NCBI GenBank assembly: GCA_003134435.1
Contig: PLBE01000225.1
Coordinates: 1 to 64,000, forward strand
Direction of reading: 5' to 3'
Origin: Acidobacteriaceae bacterium
GTDB lineage: Bacteria; Acidobacteriota; Terriglobia; Terriglobales; Acidobacteriaceae
Length of the DNA: 64,000 nucleotides
Shown here: positions 2,364 through 13,963 of the stretch, piece by piece
How the letters are laid out: each line of letters begins with the position of its first letter
Position numbering within the stretch: the stretch's first letter is position 1
Translations under genes and position numbers: made by a program
The notes under the pieces: generated by a model
The model's input: only the letters and a program-made list of their open reading frames with translations
What the model was told of the DNA's origin: nothing
Database searches by the model: none

Positions 2364-3974
2364 CTATTTCCACGCCGATTGCAGGTTCCAAACATCCAGC
2401 TTCACGATACGCGCTCGCCCGCCGTGAGAATAGAACTCCACGCCTTGACTGCTGCCGGCTGGAAAGATTTCGTCGGAAATGACGGTCTCGCCATCGTTGG
2501 CAAAAACTTCCACCGACGAGCCGTCGACGAAGAGATGCAGTTTTACCGGCTTGCCCTCCGCCCACCGAAGCGGACCGGCGTGGCGGCCGGGAAATTTGCC
2601 GTCGAAGCTGACATTGCCGGAGTGGGTGCGATCGACAAAGAGTTTCGCCTCTTTCTTGCGGATGCCCTTGTCAACACCGGCGCTGCCTCCCATGTCGACA
2701 CCGATCAGAGTTTCTTCCTCTGGCCCTTGCCGCACTTTGAGGCCGACCTCGGAAGCGCCGCCGGTTTCGATCTCCGCCTCAATCTCCAGCGTTTCCCCAT
2801 GGACATGTCTTGCCTGCAACGCCCGGTTGACGGCGCCGATACTCTGCCCTGTCAGGCTGGTATGTTGCCCCCGCAATGTGTGCAGTTCGGCAACCGGTTC
2901 CTGCAGGAGACGAATTCCATCCGCAGTCCGCCTCAGCTTGAGGTCCCGGGGAATCGATTGCAAGCCTCGCCACGGCGAAGTCGGCGTTTTGCCCGCATAC
3001 TGCCAGTTGACCAGCCATCCCAACCACATGCGACGGCCATCGGACTTGGGAATATCGCTGAAGGAAGTGGAAGCGTAAAAGTCTTTGCCGTAATCGCTCC
3101 AGAGGGTCAGTTCTTTCGCATTCTCATTGGTAAAAGTCGTTCCATCAAACTGCCCGATAAAATACTGGTCGCCCGACCCGCCGGCGAAACCACCTGGATT
3201 CAGATTAACGTCGAGCACCCAGCGCGCCTGTCCTGGTTCACCTTGGACGGGCAACTCGAACAGGTCGGGACACTCCCACACGCCTCCGTCGGCGCCGGCC
3301 GGACCGAAATCGCTGAGTGCGGTCCAGTGCTTAAGATCGGTTGATCCCCAAAAGCGCAGCTTGTGTTCCGGCGAGAGCGCGGTAACCATAATCCACTTGT
3401 GGGTCGCTTCATGCCAGAACACCTTGGGATCACGAAAGTCCTTCAAGTGGAGATCGAGAATGGGGTTGCCCGCGTACTTTGTCCAGGTGCGCCCCTTGTC
3501 ATTGCTGTAGGCGAGATTCTGAAACTGCTGAGTCCCCGTATAACCCGTATAGATCGCGATCAGACACGACGGATCGGCGGCGGATCCTGTGCATAGGCCG
3601 CTGCTGTTGTGCCAGTCCACGACGGTGCTGCCGGAGAAAATCATGATGCCGTTCTCTTCCGCGAGGGCCAATGGAAGATGTTGCCAGTGCACCAGGTCGC
3701 GGCTGACGGCATGTCCCCAACTCATATGACCCCATTCGTTGCCGAAGGGATTGTGCTGATAAAAAAGGTGGTACTCGCCCTGATAGAAAATCGGGCCGTT
3801 GGGATCGTTCGTCCAATTCTTGGCGGGCGTGAAGTGAAACTGCGGACGATAAGGTTCGTCGTAATTTTCAGCGGCCGCGGCTCCAATGGCGAGCATTAGG
3901 ATGGCGAGCATCGCGACGAGTAAGGAGCCAGACACTGCGAAAACAGCTTGACGCACGATGGACGGATATTTCAT
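2364..3974 (-). CDS. glycoside hydrolase family 32 (levanase/invertase-type), exported
   Basis: A 536-residue protein with an N-terminal hydrophobic signal segment (about residues 8-35, ending near AAAAENYDE), so it is probably exported. GH32 motifs are all present: WTNDPNG with the nucleophile Asp near residue 57, the FRDPKVF transition-state element, and WECPDLF with the acid/base Glu. A C-terminal beta-sandwich carries the usual DGSSVEVFANDGE segment. The family hydrolyses beta-fructosides (sucrose, levan, inulin). Context supports a fructan/sucrose role: MFS transporter downstream, divergent fructokinase, and a sugar-type repressor nearby. Which fructan is cleaved cannot be decided from sequence. 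Confidence 0.93.
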   Translation of the reverse strand: MKYPSIVRQAVFAVSGSLLVAMLAILMLAIGAAAAENYDEPYRPQFHFTPAKNWTNDPNGPIFYQGEYHLFYQHNPFGNEWGHMSWGHAVSRDLVHWQHLPLALAEENGIMIFSGSTVVDWHNSSGLCTGSAADPSCLIAIYTGYTGTQQFQNLAYSNDKGRTWTKYAGNPILDLHLKDFRDPKVFWHEATHKWIMVTALSPEHKLRFWGSTDLKHWTALSDFGPAGADGGVWECPDLFELPVQGEPGQARWVLDVNLNPGGFAGGSGDQYFIGQFDGTTFTNENAKELTLWSDYGKDFYASTSFSDIPKSDGRRMWLGWLVNWQYAGKTPTSPWRGLQSIPRDLKLRRTADGIRLLQEPVAELHTLRGQHTSLTGQSIGAVNRALQARHVHGETLEIEAEIETGGASEVGLKVRQGPEEETLIGVDMGGSAGVDKGIRKKEAKLFVDRTHSGNVSFDGKFPGRHAGPLRWAEGKPVKLHLFVDGSSVEVFANDGETVISDEIFPAGSSQGVEFYSHGGRARIVKLDVWNLQSAWK

Positions 3975-6760: not shown

Positions 6761-8110
6761 TCATGATCTCAAACTCGACGCCCTGCCAACGTCGAACCCA
6801 GTAGCCGACACACCCGCTGATTTCACCGCCGTCATTTGCTGGCGGAATGTTTGAACTCCTGCTCGCAGGTGCTCGATCCCAACCTTTGACTGGGAATCAA
6901 ATGCGAGTTGCCCTGCGAGAATGTAGCTTTCCCGAAGCTGCGCGAAAGAAAGCCCCGTGGCCTCTCCAGTAATGCTCCTCAATGACGGAAGATCGAATGC
7001 GCCACGACTCAGGTGCCGGAGGTAGTGCGCGGCCAAAGCTGGCTCGGGAGGGCGAAAAGCAACGACCCGATCAAATCTGCCCGGACGCTTTAGAATCGCC
7101 CCATCTAGCATGGTAGGATCGTTTGCCGTCGCAACCACGATTAACCCGTCTTGGGTGCCAATTCCATCAAGGCAATTCAGAAAGTGCTGAAGGGTTATCT
7201 TCAAGCGCCTCTCGCGGTCCTCCTGCTGTGCAAAGGCTCTGTCCAAGTCCTCAAGCACGACGAGGGACGGCGCATTTTGCGATGCCATTTCAAAAAAACC
7301 AGTGAGGGATTCGTTGGTTAAGCATTCGTGGCAAAAATCGAGAGTGAACGGTGTGATTGCAGGGTGCGATGCCATCACCTTAATCACGCTGGTTTTTCCG
7401 TTGCCGGGAGGCCCGTAGAAGAGGTAGCCGCGACGGAATGGCAATCCGTGTTCTCGGAACCACTGCTCCCGATGGAAGAATGCTTCAAAGTCACTTCTGA
7501 CCAACTGAGTGGTGGAAGGCTCAAGCACGACCGAATCCCAGTCATACTTGGGTGTAAAGTTCAGGTGTCCTCCACCAAACGTCTTCACATGCTTGGGCGA
7601 TTCGGAGATCAGAGAGCCGAGTCGAGCGAGCACCGAAGCAGCGGAGGAGCGGTTGATTATCAGCCAACTCCTCCAATCGGATACCAAGCCGTCACGGAAG
7701 GACACAAAAGGTACGTTGACAGCAACGAAGGCTGTGCGCTCCTCTTTCATCCAGACTGCGATTGGACAGTCTCGCCATTCGGCGTGCCAAGCGGTTTCTC
7801 GCTGGACGATCCAACCTCCTCGCTTGTGTGACGGCGCAAGATTCACACGTGGACTGACGCCCCCAGCCAACTCCCAGCGGTCAATGGCTGCCCTAAATGA
7901 AGAGGTTTCTTCAGCAATATCGTCAACGGGAACTCCCTTCAGCAGTTCAGCGATGACCAGCCGACCAATCGGCAATTCGATTTCGAACGTCACTGTATCT
8001 GGAAGAGCGCAGCCGAGAACTTTTTCCAGCCACGGCAAATACGGCTCTAAGCTGTCACGCATGGATGCCACTGCTGGCGCAAAACGAATTTGAGTCGATG
8101 TGATCGCCAC
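6761..8110 (-). CDS. BCS1-like AAA+ ATPase
   Basis: A 449-residue protein. The N-terminal half (about residues 1-190) has no domain I recognise. The C-terminal half is a classical AAA+ ATPase of the BCS1 type: GYLFYGPPGNGKTS Walker A near residues 229-242, SLVVLEDLDRAF Walker B, sensor 1 VVATANDP, and arginine finger-type LKRPGRFDRVV. I chose the GTG at 8110 because GAGGAG lies 8 nt upstream and it follows the stop of the upstream gene by 5 bp; a TTG 30 bases upstream would overlap that gene. Probably co-translated with the gene at 8116-8505. Role unknown; the WYL regulator nearby suggests a defence or stress module. Confidence 0.85.
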   Translation of the reverse strand: MAITSTQIRFAPAVASMRDSLEPYLPWLEKVLGCALPDTVTFEIELPIGRLVIAELLKGVPVDDIAEETSSFRAAIDRWELAGGVSPRVNLAPSHKRGGWIVQRETAWHAEWRDCPIAVWMKEERTAFVAVNVPFVSFRDGLVSDWRSWLIINRSSAASVLARLGSLISESPKHVKTFGGGHLNFTPKYDWDSVVLEPSTTQLVRSDFEAFFHREQWFREHGLPFRRGYLFYGPPGNGKTSVIKVMASHPAITPFTLDFCHECLTNESLTGFFEMASQNAPSLVVLEDLDRAFAQQEDRERRLKITLQHFLNCLDGIGTQDGLIVVATANDPTMLDGAILKRPGRFDRVVAFRPPEPALAAHYLRHLSRGAFDLPSLRSITGEATGLSFAQLRESYILAGQLAFDSQSKVGIEHLRAGVQTFRQQMTAVKSAGVSATGFDVGRASSLRS

Positions 8111-8115
8111 GGCTT

Positions 8116-8505
8116 TCACTCCTCGTCGTTGTGCAGACAATCGAAACAGCGATAATGACTGTCGCTTTCAAGCGTAATCTTGTTTGGCAAATGGAGTTCT
8201 TCCTTAATTTTCGCGATCAGGTCTCGGCGTTTCAAAAGGCACTTGTCCGCAAAAAGCATGAATATTTTGGTCTTCGTGTCGTAGGTCACCCGCCCTCGCG
8301 GATATTCCTCGTAAGGCGATTCGGGGGGAGCCTTTCCGATTCGTTGCCATTGTTCCCAAATATCGATGTGACTGTGTGGATAATTTCGGTAATCGTAATA
8401 TTGTTCGGACTGGCTCAACTCAACGCTGTCGATAAGCAGTTTGTTATTGACCAGCCAGAAAATGCCTAGACGTGGCTCAAAGCGAATCTGAGTCGAATTC
8501 ATCAT
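8116..8505 (-). CDS. conserved hypothetical protein with C-terminal CxxC
   Basis: About 129 residues from the ATG at 8505 (a second ATG follows at once). It resembles a family of short bacterial proteins of unknown function with the order [I/F]W-x-[V/I]NNKLL, YGDY/YYDYRNYPHSHIDIWE, P(E)YEEYPRGRV-YD and a final SHYRCFDC. The closing CxxC could bind metal. Residues 4-9, STQIRF followed by P one residue on, match the start of the AAA+ protein encoded just downstream. The gene is the first of a two-gene operon divergent from the WYL regulator. No function is known to me. Confidence 0.7.
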   Translation of the reverse strand: MMNSTQIRFEPRLGIFWLVNNKLLIDSVELSQSEQYYDYRNYPHSHIDIWEQWQRIGKAPPESPYEEYPRGRVTYDTKTKIFMLFADKCLLKRRDLIAKIKEELHLPNKITLESDSHYRCFDCLHNDEE

Positions 8506-9667: not shown

Positions 9668-10024
9668 CTATTTCTCACCATGCAACTGCTGCGCGAGGTA
9701 GTTGGCCATGCCCAATTCCTTGATGGAATGAAGCTGAGCGTCCAAGAAGTCCACGTGCCCTTCTTCGTCCTTGAGCATGCGCTGAAATAAGTCGCCTGAT
9801 CCGTTGTCCCCGGCTTCGGCACAGATTTTCATAGCGGAGTTGTACTGGTGTACGGCCTCTTCCTCGTCCTTGAAGTCGCCTTCGAGTTGCTGTTGCACGT
9901 TAGCACCAATCTTGGGAGTCAGAGCGACATCCACCTTGGGTGTGGCATCCAAGAACACGATGCGTTCGATAAGACCTTCTGGTCGGCGGAATCTGAGGTA
10001 AAGGCTAGGTTTCGGTTTTCGCAT
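9668..10024 (-). pseudogene. truncated bacterioferritin-like gene
   Basis: The 118-residue frame matches bacterioferritin only from about residue 17 on (GLIERIVFLDATP... KDEEGHVDFLDAQLHSIKELGMANYLAQQL). This equals the second half of the intact gene at 14050-14532, at roughly half identity, so it is not a recent copy. Helix A and most of helix B are missing, including the counterparts of Glu18, Glu51, Met52 and His54; the first 16 residues are unrelated. It cannot form a normal ferroxidase site. The break lies about 150 bp from the attachment repeat at 10135, so truncation by an earlier integration or excision is plausible. Confidence 0.7.
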
Positions 10025-10099
10025 TTCTGACTTCCTCTTCCCCTAATCCTGCGAAAGTCGGGAAATCAGTGATTTTTCCTGTAGCTTTTTTCTCGCTGC

Positions 10100-10130
10100 T
10101 TCCAAGAGCTTGAATCAAAGCCTCTTGGAA
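10100..10130. repeat. 9-bp inverted repeat beside the attachment site
   Basis: TTCCAAGAG at 10100-10108 and its complement CTCTTGGAA at 10122-10130, with a 13-nt loop, five bases outside the attachment core. There is no T-run on either side, so it is a poor terminator. It could be an integrase or accessory-protein site, or a remnant of the chromosomal sequence. Confidence 0.4.
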
Positions 10131-10134
10131 ACAC

Positions 10135-10152
10135 TGGCGGAGAGAGTGGGAT
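10135..10152 (+). other. distal attachment site (att core copy)
   Basis: tggcggagagagtgggat, identical to the last 18 nt of the tRNA-Ser gene and in the same orientation. Identity ends on both sides (C instead of A before, A instead of T after). This is the duplicate left at the far junction by site-specific integration. Confidence 0.75.
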
Positions 10153-10271
10153 ACGACACCGGGCGTGGGCAATTTTGCCCATAACACTGGTAAAATCCAT
10201 CGCTATCAATCACATCCGTCTGGGCGTTCCTGCCTAAGAAAGCCCATTTTGACCCTTAAACCGAGCCAGTT

Positions 10272-10988
10272 TTAGTACGGAATAGTACGGCAGCCTTCGT
10301 CTACCGGACTATCGGTCGAAGTATCGAGTTCAGCCGCCCAACAGAAGACTGAAACGAGGGTTCTGATCTCCTCATCCGAGAACTTCTTAGTCTTGAGGGG
10401 TTGATCTGTCTCCGTATCGTCTGCTGCTTTGCTCTGTGTGGACGCATTCGTATGCGTATACGTATGCGGTTCCTCGACAGCATTCGAACCCTTACCACCA
10501 CCCCGTCCGTCCACCCCTCCACCGTTCTGTATATGATTGCCGGGGGATTTACCTACAGTGGGCTTTTTACCTACAGTTGAATCCTCGACTGTTGGTAAAT
10601 CCCTTACAGTACCCCCAAGAGGCTGAATCAGAATGCGATAGGTGTTAGTCGCCTTGACGGAGCCGGGGTGAATCGGGTGGAATCCGACAAACTCGATCAG
10701 CTTCAACTCTTGGCAGAGATCGATGCCATCTTTGGCGGCGTCGTAGCTCGAACCCATTTTCTTGGCGAGAGCCGTCTGGCCGATATACGTCTCGCGTGTA
10801 TCGAAGTCCATGCTGTCGATCAGACACAGCATGGTGAACTTAGCCTTGCCCTTGATATCGGCGGCGATGATCGCGTTGATGTACGGAATGTGTCGGTTGT
10901 CCACAATGCGCTCCAAACAGACGCGGCCCGCGCCGACCGTGGAAGGAAGAAGACGCAGGCCGTTGCCTCCGCTTGGAAGCAAACTCAA
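10272..10988 (-). CDS. winged-helix/HTH_36-like DNA-binding protein of the element
   Basis: 238 residues. The central part (about 25-125) resembles replication-protein-like winged helices: KAKFTMLCLIDSMD, then TYIGQTALAKKMG and a recognition-helix-like SYDAAKDGIDLCQEL, then a wing with KATNTYRIL. It is followed by a low-complexity Gly/Thr-rich linker with a TVG(K)KPTVGK repeat and a short acidic C-terminal tail that stops abruptly. It may be the element's replication or regulatory protein. The exact start is uncertain because the first 25 residues are not conserved-looking. The lack of a clear C-terminal domain could reflect truncation at the element end. Confidence 0.6.
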   Translation of the reverse strand: MSLLPSGGNGLRLLPSTVGAGRVCLERIVDNRHIPYINAIIAADIKGKAKFTMLCLIDSMDFDTRETYIGQTALAKKMGSSYDAAKDGIDLCQELKLIEFVGFHPIHPGSVKATNTYRILIQPLGGTVRDLPTVEDSTVGKKPTVGKSPGNHIQNGGGVDGRGGGKGSNAVEEPHTYTHTNASTQSKAADDTETDQPLKTKKFSDEEIRTLVSVFCWAAELDTSTDSPVDEGCRTIPY

Positions 10989-11059
10989 ACTTGTTGTGCT
11001 GACCTTCCACGGTCAATTGTCGTCTAACTGACATTCCGCAGCGATGAAGTCTGCGGACA

Positions 11060-12235
11060 TTAACGATTCTTTTGACCCATTGCCATGTCTTCTCTAACGG
11101 TTTTGTCTGCCCATGCGCGCAGCCGCTCTTGGTCACCCGGCTCGTCTAGATGCTGGTTACGACGCATGATCTCGTCAACCTGCTTCCTGATTGCTTGTTC
11201 TCTGTCTATTTCTGCCTCCAGCCTAGGGATGCTGTTCTCTAACTTTGACTTTTGTTCGTTCGGGGTTGAGTCCGAGTCATCAGGGGACAGCTGCTCCAGT
11301 TGCGCCGCCATTTGCGAAAACTTGTAGCGGCGTACACTGCGCTCACCCTCGCCATTCCTGAGACGGCAGAGTTTGTCGTACTCGCATAAGCACCCTTGGA
11401 TATCCTGCGCATGGAGATTCAGCCCTGTTACCTGCCGAATCGGTTCGCGGACGGTATCACAGAGTTGGCGAAATTCCGCATACCAAGCCGCCTCGGCCCA
11501 GTATTTGCGCGGGGTACGTCCCAGCACTCGGTCCAAGCCACGACGGGACCCCGGACCCGAGACCGCAAACGTCCACCAGTCAGACGCATCCTGAAGCTGA
11601 ACGTATTTCAAGTCGGCTACGACCTGACCTGCATAGAAGCCGCCCATATACGGACCCTCACTCAACCTTGAGGCGAAGGACGAAAGTGTATCGCCATGAC
11701 GAGGACGGTAGTAGTCGCGCCGCTCCCAGATGGGGGTGAGCACATGGCTCACGATCAGGTCGGCTTGTTCCCCGGCCTGACCCGACACCATGACCTTGTA
11801 TGCCTGCGCTTCGTAGGCTTTGTGACCAGCGGCTTGGCGAGACCGAATCACGGCCCTGAAATGCTCGGGGTTCCACGGCACGGGATACCCAAGCTCGGCC
11901 AGTGTGTCAGGCCAGTTGACGGCACGGCGTGCGACTAGCAGTGCGAACCACAATTCTGGATCATTCTCGAATGGCTCACGATAGAGGGTAGCTATGCCTT
12001 TTGTGACGCGGTCATCTTCGCGACGAACACAGCAGAACTTGTAGTCGCGAAGTATCGGGTCGTTGGTCCACGGCCAAGGCTGTCCCGCCTCTTTTTTGAG
12101 CCGGACATGCTCACGCTCCGCGACGAAATGCAGAAGTGCTTCTGTCTCTTTCATCACTCCTCTATTGATTGGAAAGCCGGGTGAGTCGCCCCACCCGGAT
12201 CGCGACTTTGACCACGAGCGTTCCCTCCGCATCAC
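11060..12235 (-). CDS. 5-hmdU DNA kinase helical-domain / aGPT-pyrophosphorylase-like protein
   Basis: 391 residues. Residues about 30-280 resemble the Pfam HMUDK_hel family of thymine-hypermodification proteins (5-hmdU DNA kinase, alpha-glutamyl/putrescinyl-thymine pyrophosphorylase): a pattern with PWPWTNDPILRDYKFCCV-R-x-DDRVT, then DPELWFALLVARRAVNWPDTL and GYPVPWNPEHF. Family members act on hydroxymethyl-uracil in phage DNA; a role here in base modification or its control is inference. The last 110 residues are charged and probably coiled coil. Start is the GTG at 12235, overlapping the upstream stop as GTGA, so translation is likely coupled; Met28 is an alternative start. Confidence 0.68.
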   Translation of the reverse strand: MMRRERSWSKSRSGWGDSPGFPINRGVMKETEALLHFVAEREHVRLKKEAGQPWPWTNDPILRDYKFCCVRREDDRVTKGIATLYREPFENDPELWFALLVARRAVNWPDTLAELGYPVPWNPEHFRAVIRSRQAAGHKAYEAQAYKVMVSGQAGEQADLIVSHVLTPIWERRDYYRPRHGDTLSSFASRLSEGPYMGGFYAGQVVADLKYVQLQDASDWWTFAVSGPGSRRGLDRVLGRTPRKYWAEAAWYAEFRQLCDTVREPIRQVTGLNLHAQDIQGCLCEYDKLCRLRNGEGERSVRRYKFSQMAAQLEQLSPDDSDSTPNEQKSKLENSIPRLEAEIDREQAIRKQVDEIMRRNQHLDEPGDQERLRAWADKTVREDMAMGQKNR

Positions 12236-12438
12236 TGGATTGTGTCGTCTTCAAACACAATCCGCTTGGCTTGGCTGCGGGCCGCTTCAGCCCACTGCCG
12301 TGCTTCAGCGATTGCAACACCCGCCGTTAGAACGAAGTCACATGCCGCACTTTCATTCCCGGAGATCGTCCGAGCGACGGTGTCACATAGAGCATCGTTC
12401 AGCACTTCAAGCCACTTGATGCGTTCGGTTTTTGTCAT
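12232..12438 (-). CDS. small hypothetical protein (68 aa)
   Basis: A 68-residue, mostly helical protein (LNDALCDTVARTISG..., AIAEARQWAEAARSQAKRI). It has a good Shine-Dalgarno, AAGGAG, about 11 nt upstream of ATG 12438, and a 4-base GTGA overlap with the following gene, so it is almost certainly translated as the first gene of an operon. No domain recognised. It may be a partner or regulator of the protein encoded downstream. Confidence 0.7.
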   Translation of the reverse strand: MTKTERIKWLEVLNDALCDTVARTISGNESAACDFVLTAGVAIAEARQWAEAARSQAKRIVFEDDTIQ

Positions 12439-12460
12439 GGAGAAAGTCTCCTTTCCGGGA

Positions 12461-12478
12461 CTGAGACACGTGTCCCAG
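12461..12478. promoter_or_regulatory. 18-bp near-perfect palindrome, candidate operator
   Basis: CTGAGACACGTGTCCCAG, one mismatched pair in nine, with a perfect 10-bp centre GACACGTGTC at 12465-12474. It lies 23 bp upstream of the ATG at 12438, within the 114-bp gap between the integrase stop and the cargo operon. The position fits an operator for the cargo genes; the binding protein could be the element's own winged-helix protein. Confidence 0.5.
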
Positions 12479-12552
12479 CGTCATTCTCCCGCCGGAGGGA
12501 ACCGCCCGGTAAGGTGCCTTTGGTAATGGGATTGGGGTGGGTTGCGCCGATG

Positions 12553-13803
12553 TCACTCCGTTGACGGGTATACGGTCATGATTGCCGGATCGCTCGCCGA
12601 CACAGCGATGCTGCCGTCCGGCAGAACCGTCGCGACCGGGAAGAGCATTGAAATCTTCTTCTTCCACACTTTGTTCAGCTTTTCTTTGATGATGTCGTTT
12701 GTGGCGGGAGCCAAGTACCGCATCGTGCTTTGAACGTCCTTGTGGCCTAGCAAGTACTGCACCGTTGGAACATCAAGCCCGGAGCGTAGGCAGGCCGTGG
12801 CATAGGTTGATCTAAATTTGTGCAAGTAAAACTTCTTCTCATCCAGTTCCGCTTTTTTCGCGATGTCCTTGCACCAGCGCAGTAGTTTCTCGTTGGGACG
12901 TCCGTGAATGTTCGGGAAAACGAGGTTGTGTTGCGGACGCCCCTTTCGCGACTTCTTTGAATGCTGCTCCAAGGCTCGCGTCAAATCCTCGGGAACAACC
13001 ATCTCGCGCTCCGAATTTGTCTTGGGTACCCAGCCATAATGAGGCTTGGCGCTGACCCTCAGCGTGCTTTCTTTGAAATTCAAATCAGACCATTCCAAGT
13101 GAATGAGTTCCCTCTCGCGAAGACCCACTTTCAAGAAGACAGAGAAGATCAATGACTCCGTCGAATCACAGGCTTTGAAAAACGCATCAAGCTCCTCCTG
13201 CGTGTAAACCTCCGGCATCTCCTCAACATACTTGGGAGCATCGCGACCGCTCACGAGTCTGATGCCCTTTGATTTCAGGAAAGAATGGACCGTCAGAAAC
13301 TTGTCGCAGGCAGTTCGCGGGGATCGCTTGTTCTTGAGAAGCCATTCGCGATACTTCAGGACATCGATCCGGGTCACGTCTCCGAGATTCGTTCGCTTGG
13401 CGTACCCGAGAAACTCTTCCAGCGTCTGTTTCGTCTTGCAGTAGGAGTTCGGCCTGTGCGTCAGGCGATAGTCCTCCAGATAGGCGTAGATTGCCGCTGA
13501 GAGGAGGAGGGACGGGCCTGCAGGTTCCGTTACCGCAATACCGAGGCTTCTTGCGTTCAGAACGCTTCGCTGAATCTCGGCTTCGTTCTGGGCATCCGCA
13601 GCGTTCTTACATTTCCGGGTGCGCTGCCTTTTCCCCTCGTACCACTTAATGATGTAGTCGGAGTCGGGGTGGTGTTCCTTGTGCCCGTTGACGTGGCACC
13701 AGTCCGGTTTGATCTTATTGTTCCGAGCCGTGACAGGCCTGTAGTACGACCAGACGCCATTCACTTTTGCGGATTGATAGATCGCGACACGGAGGTTCGC
13801 CAT
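12553..13803 (-). CDS. tyrosine recombinase (phage-type integrase)
   Basis: 416 residues from the ATG at 13803 (an alternative start lies 4 codons upstream). An N-terminal arm-binding-like region and a SAM-like core-binding domain (AIYAYLEDYRLTHRPNSY..., SPRTACDKFLTVHSFL) precede the catalytic domain. Catalytic residues are visible: Arg in VGLRERELIHLEW, the HKFRSTYAT box (H-x-x-R), His in LLGHKD, and the nucleophile Tyr in STMRYL. It lies 70 bp inside the tRNA-Ser 3' end with its start toward the tRNA. It should catalyse integration and excision at the 18-bp core. Confidence 0.92.
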   Translation of the reverse strand: MANLRVAIYQSAKVNGVWSYYRPVTARNNKIKPDWCHVNGHKEHHPDSDYIIKWYEGKRQRTRKCKNAADAQNEAEIQRSVLNARSLGIAVTEPAGPSLLLSAAIYAYLEDYRLTHRPNSYCKTKQTLEEFLGYAKRTNLGDVTRIDVLKYREWLLKNKRSPRTACDKFLTVHSFLKSKGIRLVSGRDAPKYVEEMPEVYTQEELDAFFKACDSTESLIFSVFLKVGLRERELIHLEWSDLNFKESTLRVSAKPHYGWVPKTNSEREMVVPEDLTRALEQHSKKSRKGRPQHNLVFPNIHGRPNEKLLRWCKDIAKKAELDEKKFYLHKFRSTYATACLRSGLDVPTVQYLLGHKDVQSTMRYLAPATNDIIKEKLNKVWKKKISMLFPVATVLPDGSIAVSASDPAIMTVYPSTE

Positions 13804-13873
13804 AAGGCGAACCATACCTCAAAACCATACAATCGTAGTACAACCGCCCGTAACACTATGGAAACTAAAGTTA

Positions 13874-13891
13874 TGGCGGAGAGAGTGGGAT
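13874..13891 (+). other. proximal attachment site within tRNA-Ser 3' end
   Basis: tggcggagagagtgggat on the plus strand, equal to the CCA, discriminator, acceptor 3' strand and part of the T arm of the tRNA read in reverse. It matches the distal copy at 10135-10152 exactly, and the tRNA stays intact. Confidence 0.75.
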
Positions 13892-13963
13892 TCGAACCCA
13901 CGTTACCCTTTCGAGTAAACACGCTTTCCAAGCGTGCGCCTTCAGCCACTCGGCCATCTCTCC
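13874..13963 (-). tRNA. tRNA-Ser(GGA), CCA encoded
   Basis: A 90-nt class II tRNA. The acceptor stem is GGAGAGA paired with TCTCTCC, followed by discriminator G and an encoded CCA. The D arm reads GGCCGAGTGGCTGAAGG, the anticodon stem-loop is CACGCTTGGAAAGCGTG with anticodon GGA, there is a long variable arm, and the T arm is GTGGGTTCGAATCCCAC. It is the integration target of the element on its 3' side. Confidence 0.97.

Follow-up and report, generated by a model that had tools for sequence, protein, structure and literature searches.

A compact tRNA-Ser(GGA) element in an Acidobacteriaceae genome, lying in tandem with an older integrase element and carrying an orphan PF18723 gene of probable phage origin

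The window analyzed here is a 64,000-nucleotide stretch from an Acidobacteriaceae bacterium (GCA_003134435.1, contig PLBE01000225.1, positions 1–64,000 of the forward strand). We find that it probably (at roughly 60%) contains a 3,739-bp non-self-transmissible element at tRNA-Ser(GGA), which was inserted in an integration hotspot as the younger member of a tandem and carries an orphan, phage-derived gene of the PF18723 family. The boundaries and the tandem structure of this element are well supported, and its mobility is inferred from its anatomy. Specifically, a tyrosine integrase would recombine an 18-bp core located where the tRNA gene has its 3′ end, with insertion leaving the tRNA intact and a second core at the far end. 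Feature coordinates are collected in Table 1.

The 18-mer TGGCGGAGAGAGTGGGAT occurs in two exact copies spaced by 3,739 bp, and its reverse complement, ATCCCACTCTCTCCGCCA, is the tRNA 3′ end, so that the core begins at the encoded CCA. These are the only two exact copies in the whole assembly (5.75 Mb in 261 contigs), where three near-copies with 1–2 mismatches are the ends of tRNA-Ser(CGA), (UGA), and (GCU). With up to 3 mismatches allowed, the window still holds only the same two sites (chance expectation 0.09), and none of 100 shuffled windows contained two. Four open reading frames (ORFs), all on the minus strand, fill the interval between the cores. The claims of a first-pass annotation made from the letters of this DNA—i.e. 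an 18-bp repeat at the tRNA CCA recurring 3.74 kb away, a tyrosine integrase just inside the tRNA, and precise ends around only four genes with no capsid or transfer gene among them—are all borne out by these data. A chance repeat or an assembly join is highly improbable: the assembly is fragmented and has a contamination estimate of 4.4%, but an exact repeat at a tRNA end with an integrase next to it is far above chance, 18 bp is too short for typical misjoins, and homologous junctions exist in other genomes.

The layout is that of an Islander-type island, bounded by a tRNA gene and, in the same orientation, a cognate fragment, with an integrase between them and a length inside the 2–200 kb range. 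Such islands show size peaks at 13.6 and 39.9 kb, and they have been described in tandem arrays whose members each bring a tRNA fragment and an integrase of their own (PMC4383910). The present element is far smaller than either peak, and its older neighbor is just a remnant.

The integrase aligns with its relatives at all catalytic positions (R, K, H-x-x-R, H, and Y). Its ORF starts 59 bp from the CCA; the alignment with relatives points to the internal ATG at 13803 as the probable start, which would put the distance at 71 bp. Integrases 35–45% identical to it (E < 1e-50) are found in 16 other genomes among the 150 relatives we compared. Among 13 loci with related integrases that were scanned for tRNAs, 8 show one, and in all 8 it is a tRNA-Ser (GGA, UGA, or GCU) or a tRNA-Leu (CAA or GAG), with the integrase beside its 3′ end. 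Within the genus, tRNA-Ser(GGA) is conserved together with bfr and luxR-type neighbors, the sequence downstream of the tRNA differs in almost all genomes, and 9 of the 12 readable loci have integrase sequence within about 1.6 kb downstream. The tRNA-Ser(GGA) site is thus an integration hotspot.

Another genome of the genus holds a 1,260-bp integrase-only unit next to tRNA-Ser(GGA) (L077, G017:C209:19000-23688, positions 2501–3797 of that locus). It is bounded by exact copies of the 18-bp core and consists of a single truncated or frameshifted integrase ORF of 284 amino acids, with a two-base NN gap in the tRNA. The related flank occurs in a further genome (G011) without this unit, and the pair therefore supports use of the 18-bp core. 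No second core was found in the other tRNA-Ser and tRNA-Leu loci bearing related integrases. At four of these loci (L082, L085, L086, and L087), the integrase lies beside a tRNA-Ser, host-like genes come immediately after it, and a second core was not found nearby; from such sequences, solo integrases or decayed islands appear to be common in the genus.

The DNA outside the far core belongs to a different integrase element. Window positions 10022–10134 align with the sequence directly after the CCA of tRNA-Ser(UGA) in one relative (G008:C109) and with the sequence after a 25-nt core in another (G018:C332), and in both the matching sequence runs on into integrase-like sequence. Because the outer flank is the integrase start of this other element, the far core is common to the new element and to an older one, in which the core and the integrase start are retained and the integrase is truncated. 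At this site, an older integrase element would thus have been in place first, and the younger one would have inserted itself between it and the tRNA. Beyond the junction lies a bacterioferritin fragment. Its identity is 56–67% to a full-length paralogue that occurs separately, elsewhere in the genus, but only about 45% to the tRNA-adjacent bfr. The first-pass annotation took this fragment for the native neighbor of the tRNA gene, a view we reject since the outer DNA matches the start of the other integrase element. Its expected empty site, a junction of tRNA-Ser(GGA) with the bacterioferritin fragment, is present in no genome of the genus, as the far core is shared with the truncated older element. 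That junction is the wrong test because the outer DNA belongs to the latter, and the equivalent uninterrupted junction, with the CCA running straight into the same arm, is found at tRNA-Ser(UGA) in G008.

The far repeat might also not be the true end, in which case the element would extend left over the bacterioferritin fragment, a WYL regulator, and an AAA gene. These three genes adjoin the tRNA in none of the 24 genus genomes, and the contig terminates at window position 1. We consider this extension improbable, given that no further core copy was found to the left in the window, that the DNA immediately beyond the far core comes from the integrase end of another type of element, and that the putative arm sites fall inside the 10135 boundary. 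The AAA ATPase (6761–8140) weakly resembles the defence ATPase IetA (2.6e-11), and it adjoins a 139-amino-acid ORF and the WYL regulator.

Both ends of the 3,739-bp element carry a repeated hexamer, TAGTAC, with two copies per end within the inner 140 bp, all in the same orientation, and six copies on that strand in the 64 kb. Random pairs of 140-bp segments matched this score in 1 of 20,000 cases. These repeats look like integrase arm sites and would be the likely ones here. Excision would join 10152 to 13874 in a circle carrying the attachment site attP, and the tRNA CCA to GTGTTTCCAAGAGG at the excised site. Another word common to both ends, AGTGTTAYGGGC, was discarded, as 62 of 400 random pairs equaled it. 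A perfect 16-bp palindrome, TGGGCAATTTTGCCCA, lies just inside the far core (10167–10182) and might be bound by an excision or replication factor.

The cargo gene that gives this island its unusual character encodes a protein of up to 391 amino acids, or 364 from the likelier start, an ATG at 12154 shortly past the motif AGAGGAG. It scores 120.6 bits against PF18723 (gathering cutoff 25), which places it in this family; it retains every one of the 14 columns that show no variation in 50 sequences, and a further helical tail extends its C terminus. A tree of 54 rows groups the protein with phage proteins, as the sister of one encoded on a 75-kb viral contig (L111; support 100/97). The family is widespread among phages, with PF18723 matching 357 phage records. 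When used alone as a query, the cargo protein found no match in the viral or genome collections, and an alignment of five sequences retrieved 285 viral and 25 genomic relatives. Its occurrence among the related genomes is sporadic (2 others of 150).

In M6-like phages, the PF18723 gene lies beside genes for a nucleotide kinase, aGPT-Pplase2, and a pyrimidine hydroxymethylase (PMC9476957), and phage Sonora likewise has one in a thymine hypermodification cassette. The cargo is about 30–34% identical to the M6-like proteins, with the signature residues kept. The PF18723 gene is common to the element and to the M6/YuA-type cassette, which pairs aGPT-Pplase1/HMUDK_hel with the HMUDK P-loop kinase, but in the element it stands alone. 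A thymidylate-synthase-like gene is close to most of the relatives we fetched, and none is present in the 3.7-kb element. Neither part expected of a functional 5-hydroxymethyldeoxyuridine (5-hmdU) DNA kinase pair was found in the assembly as a whole, which has no match to the partner kinase PF18748 (E ≤ 1) and none to PF00303, the hydroxymethylase/synthase type that would be the source of hydroxymethyl-dU. The sister viral contig L111 has no match to either family. From these comparisons, the cargo appears to be a phage-derived orphan separated from the partner genes of its pathway. Since no such kinase or hydroxymethylase was found in the genome, modification of host DNA by this protein along the known route is improbable.

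This isolation is also what one would expect of a deletion remnant—i.e. of a larger prophage or island of which the integrase, the ends, and a few genes survive, and whose cargo, now without a role, was left over from a thymine-hypermodification cassette of a phage. Leftovers consisting of an integrase alone or of an integrase fragment are often found next to these tRNAs in the genus, the older neighboring element is plainly truncated, and the usual gene partners are absent around the cargo. On the other hand, neither core is damaged, none of the four ORFs is interrupted, no remains of structural genes were found, and the 14 invariant columns of the cargo are retained. We rate a remnant as unlikely, if a serious contender.

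Relatives of the cargo occur in several other settings. In two members of the same phylum (L064 and L065; G366:C18 and G283:C16), PF18723 is fused to an N-terminal thymidylate-kinase-like domain in proteins of 584–587 amino acids, which would make them a natural one-chain version of the kinase pair. Another locus (L090, G102:C56, 2948–6752) has genes that we named by eye as ImmA-like peptidase, thymidylate-synthase-like, PF18723, and MazG-like, near terminase-like genes; judged by its gene content, this row resembles a base-modification or defence cassette. Candidates for further orphan copies are found in Ramlibacter albus (L206, 8001–8807), with no obvious thymidylate-synthase or P-loop kinase neighbor in the fetched stretch, and on a Flagellatimonas plasmid (L106, 7959–8840), where the annotation of the fetched stretch shows no obvious neighbor of either kind.

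A structure model of the cargo, of good quality (predicted local distance difference test, pLDDT, 89), has a DNA-glycosylase-like predicted fold. Among solved structures, its best match is a phage 5-PmdU glycinyltransferase (8z2n), followed by helix-hairpin-helix DNA glycosylases, all with modest scores. The Lys/Asp pair of EndoIII-type glycosylases seems to be absent, as judged by eye on the sequence. The cargo may recognize or act on hydroxymethyl-dU type DNA of invading phages, and an accessory anti-phage gene of this kind is the role we tentatively favor, at less than even odds. A defence role for an orphan PF18723 protein is plausible because anti-phage activity has been validated, in a different context, for a system that contains a 5-hmdU kinase domain (PMC13092281); what this DefensePredictor system and the element have in common is a 5-hmdU kinase-type domain in a bacterial genome. 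More doubtful is the idea that a stand-alone PF18723 protein would act as a kinase-free sensor or enzyme against hydroxymethyl-dU phages. The base-modification machinery of phages would then have been turned into a defence of a single gene, with a tRNA-Ser integrase as its means of spread.

The element could alternatively be a phage satellite, with a helper phage of hydroxymethyl-dU DNA inducing and packaging it, PF18723 fitting its DNA to the helper, and the 238-amino-acid ORF starting its replication. Its small size, the integrase at a tRNA, the phage-derived cargo, and the faint similarity of this ORF to a replication initiator are consistent with such a lifestyle. Searches of phages, plasmids, viral contigs, and the 150 related genomes found no relatives of the ORF itself, and its structure model is unusable (pLDDT 35). 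Satellites can be minimal: PICMI in Vibrionaceae have a prototype of 6.1 kb with six genes, 17-bp direct repeats, and no capsid remodeling genes, and are defined by colocalized int, alpA, and prim and by integration at fis (PMC10803314). The element shares with them the few genes, the integrase, the short direct repeats, and the lack of capsid remodeling genes, but of the three colocalized genes only int was found in it, and it lies at tRNA-Ser instead of fis and has no known helper phage. Profile searches of its ORFs found no AlpA, primase, terminase, or capsid-remodeling gene, and two strings spanning attP do not occur in any of 2.9 million viral contigs. Together with the missing PF18748 and PF00303 matches in the genome and in contig L111, these results make a satellite a rather doubtful reading. 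A plasmid search with the whole element returned zero matches.

The 68-amino-acid ORF just upstream of the PF18723 gene might form with it a toxin–antitoxin pair that stabilizes the island. The two genes are adjacent and the small ORF has a weak CcdA match, but this match is under the Pfam cutoff, PF18723 is no known toxin family, and relatives of the small ORF were not detected at the loci of the cargo's relatives, all of which makes a pair very improbable. Promoter and terminator scans gave nothing exceeding chance.

Several observations weigh against a mobile tRNA-Ser element with an orphan anti-phage cargo. No empty site for this exact element was found among the 24 genus genomes. TAGTAC was picked post hoc and 3 of its 4 sites overlap coding sequence, so that a function as arm sites is offered as a proposal. 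The cargo deviates at residues 42, 53, and 130, well-aligned positions conserved in at least 90% of relatives, and its activity may have changed as a result. The PF18748 model is narrow, and the role of partner could fall to a divergent kinase or to the thymidylate kinase of the host; a sister locus (L116) has P-loop kinase-like ORFs close by. The fold matches are weak (best Foldseek E 0.2), and a VIA Z near 10 falls in the range of unrelated helical models. Lastly, no PADLOC profile matches any of the four element proteins at E ≤ 1. The suggestion in the first-pass annotation of a satellite or defence carrier is unproven: the element gave no PADLOC match, no satellite hallmark gene, and no viral contig with its attP. 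The link of the cargo to phage DNA chemistry is supported.

Table 1. Features of the tRNA-Ser(GGA) element and its older neighbor (window coordinates)
Feature	Position	Strand	Evidence or remark
C-terminal part of second bacterioferritin-type gene, fused in frame to truncated integrase start	9668..9990	-	PF00210 residues 18-102
Older integrase element remnant: attL arm and truncated integrase start MRKPKPSLYLRFRRP	9991..10134	-	
attR core of 3.7-kb element, also attL core of older tandem element	10135..10152	-	
Orphan 238-aa ORF	10272..10988	-	Faint match to phage replication-initiator profile phrog_270, E 0.053
TAGTAC, putative arm-type site, left end	10273..10278	+	Overlaps end of 238-aa ORF
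TAGTAC, putative arm-type site, left end	10283..10288	+	Overlaps end of 238-aa ORF
HMUDK_hel, helical component of 5-hmdU DNA kinase (aGPT-Pplase1 type), 391-aa ORF	11060..12235	-	PF18723 1.1e-34
68-aa ORF, just upstream of PF18723 gene	12232..12438	-	PF07362 (CcdA antitoxin) E 0.005, sub-threshold
Tyrosine integrase, 420 aa (likely start 13803, 416 aa)	12553..13815	-	PF00589 4.4e-27; phrog_1 6.9e-43
TAGTAC, putative arm-type site, right end	13742..13747	+	Within int 5′ region
TAGTAC, putative arm-type site, right end	13836..13841	+	Non-coding
attL core, 18 bp (22 bp with one mismatch)	13874..13891	-	tRNA-Ser(GGA) 3′ end
tRNA-Ser(GGA), integration target, kept intact by insertion	13874..13963	-	ARAGORN; Rfam RF00005 61.5 bits

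As a tRNA island, the element is of a known type, and its unusual part is the orphan modification gene. The locus illustrates the stacking of islands at a single tRNA gene in the genus, and it offers a compact, well-bounded example in which a phage gene for thymine modification is carried apart from its pathway. Should the orphan protein act against modified phage DNA, it would represent a single-gene means to target phages whose modified bases let them escape restriction.

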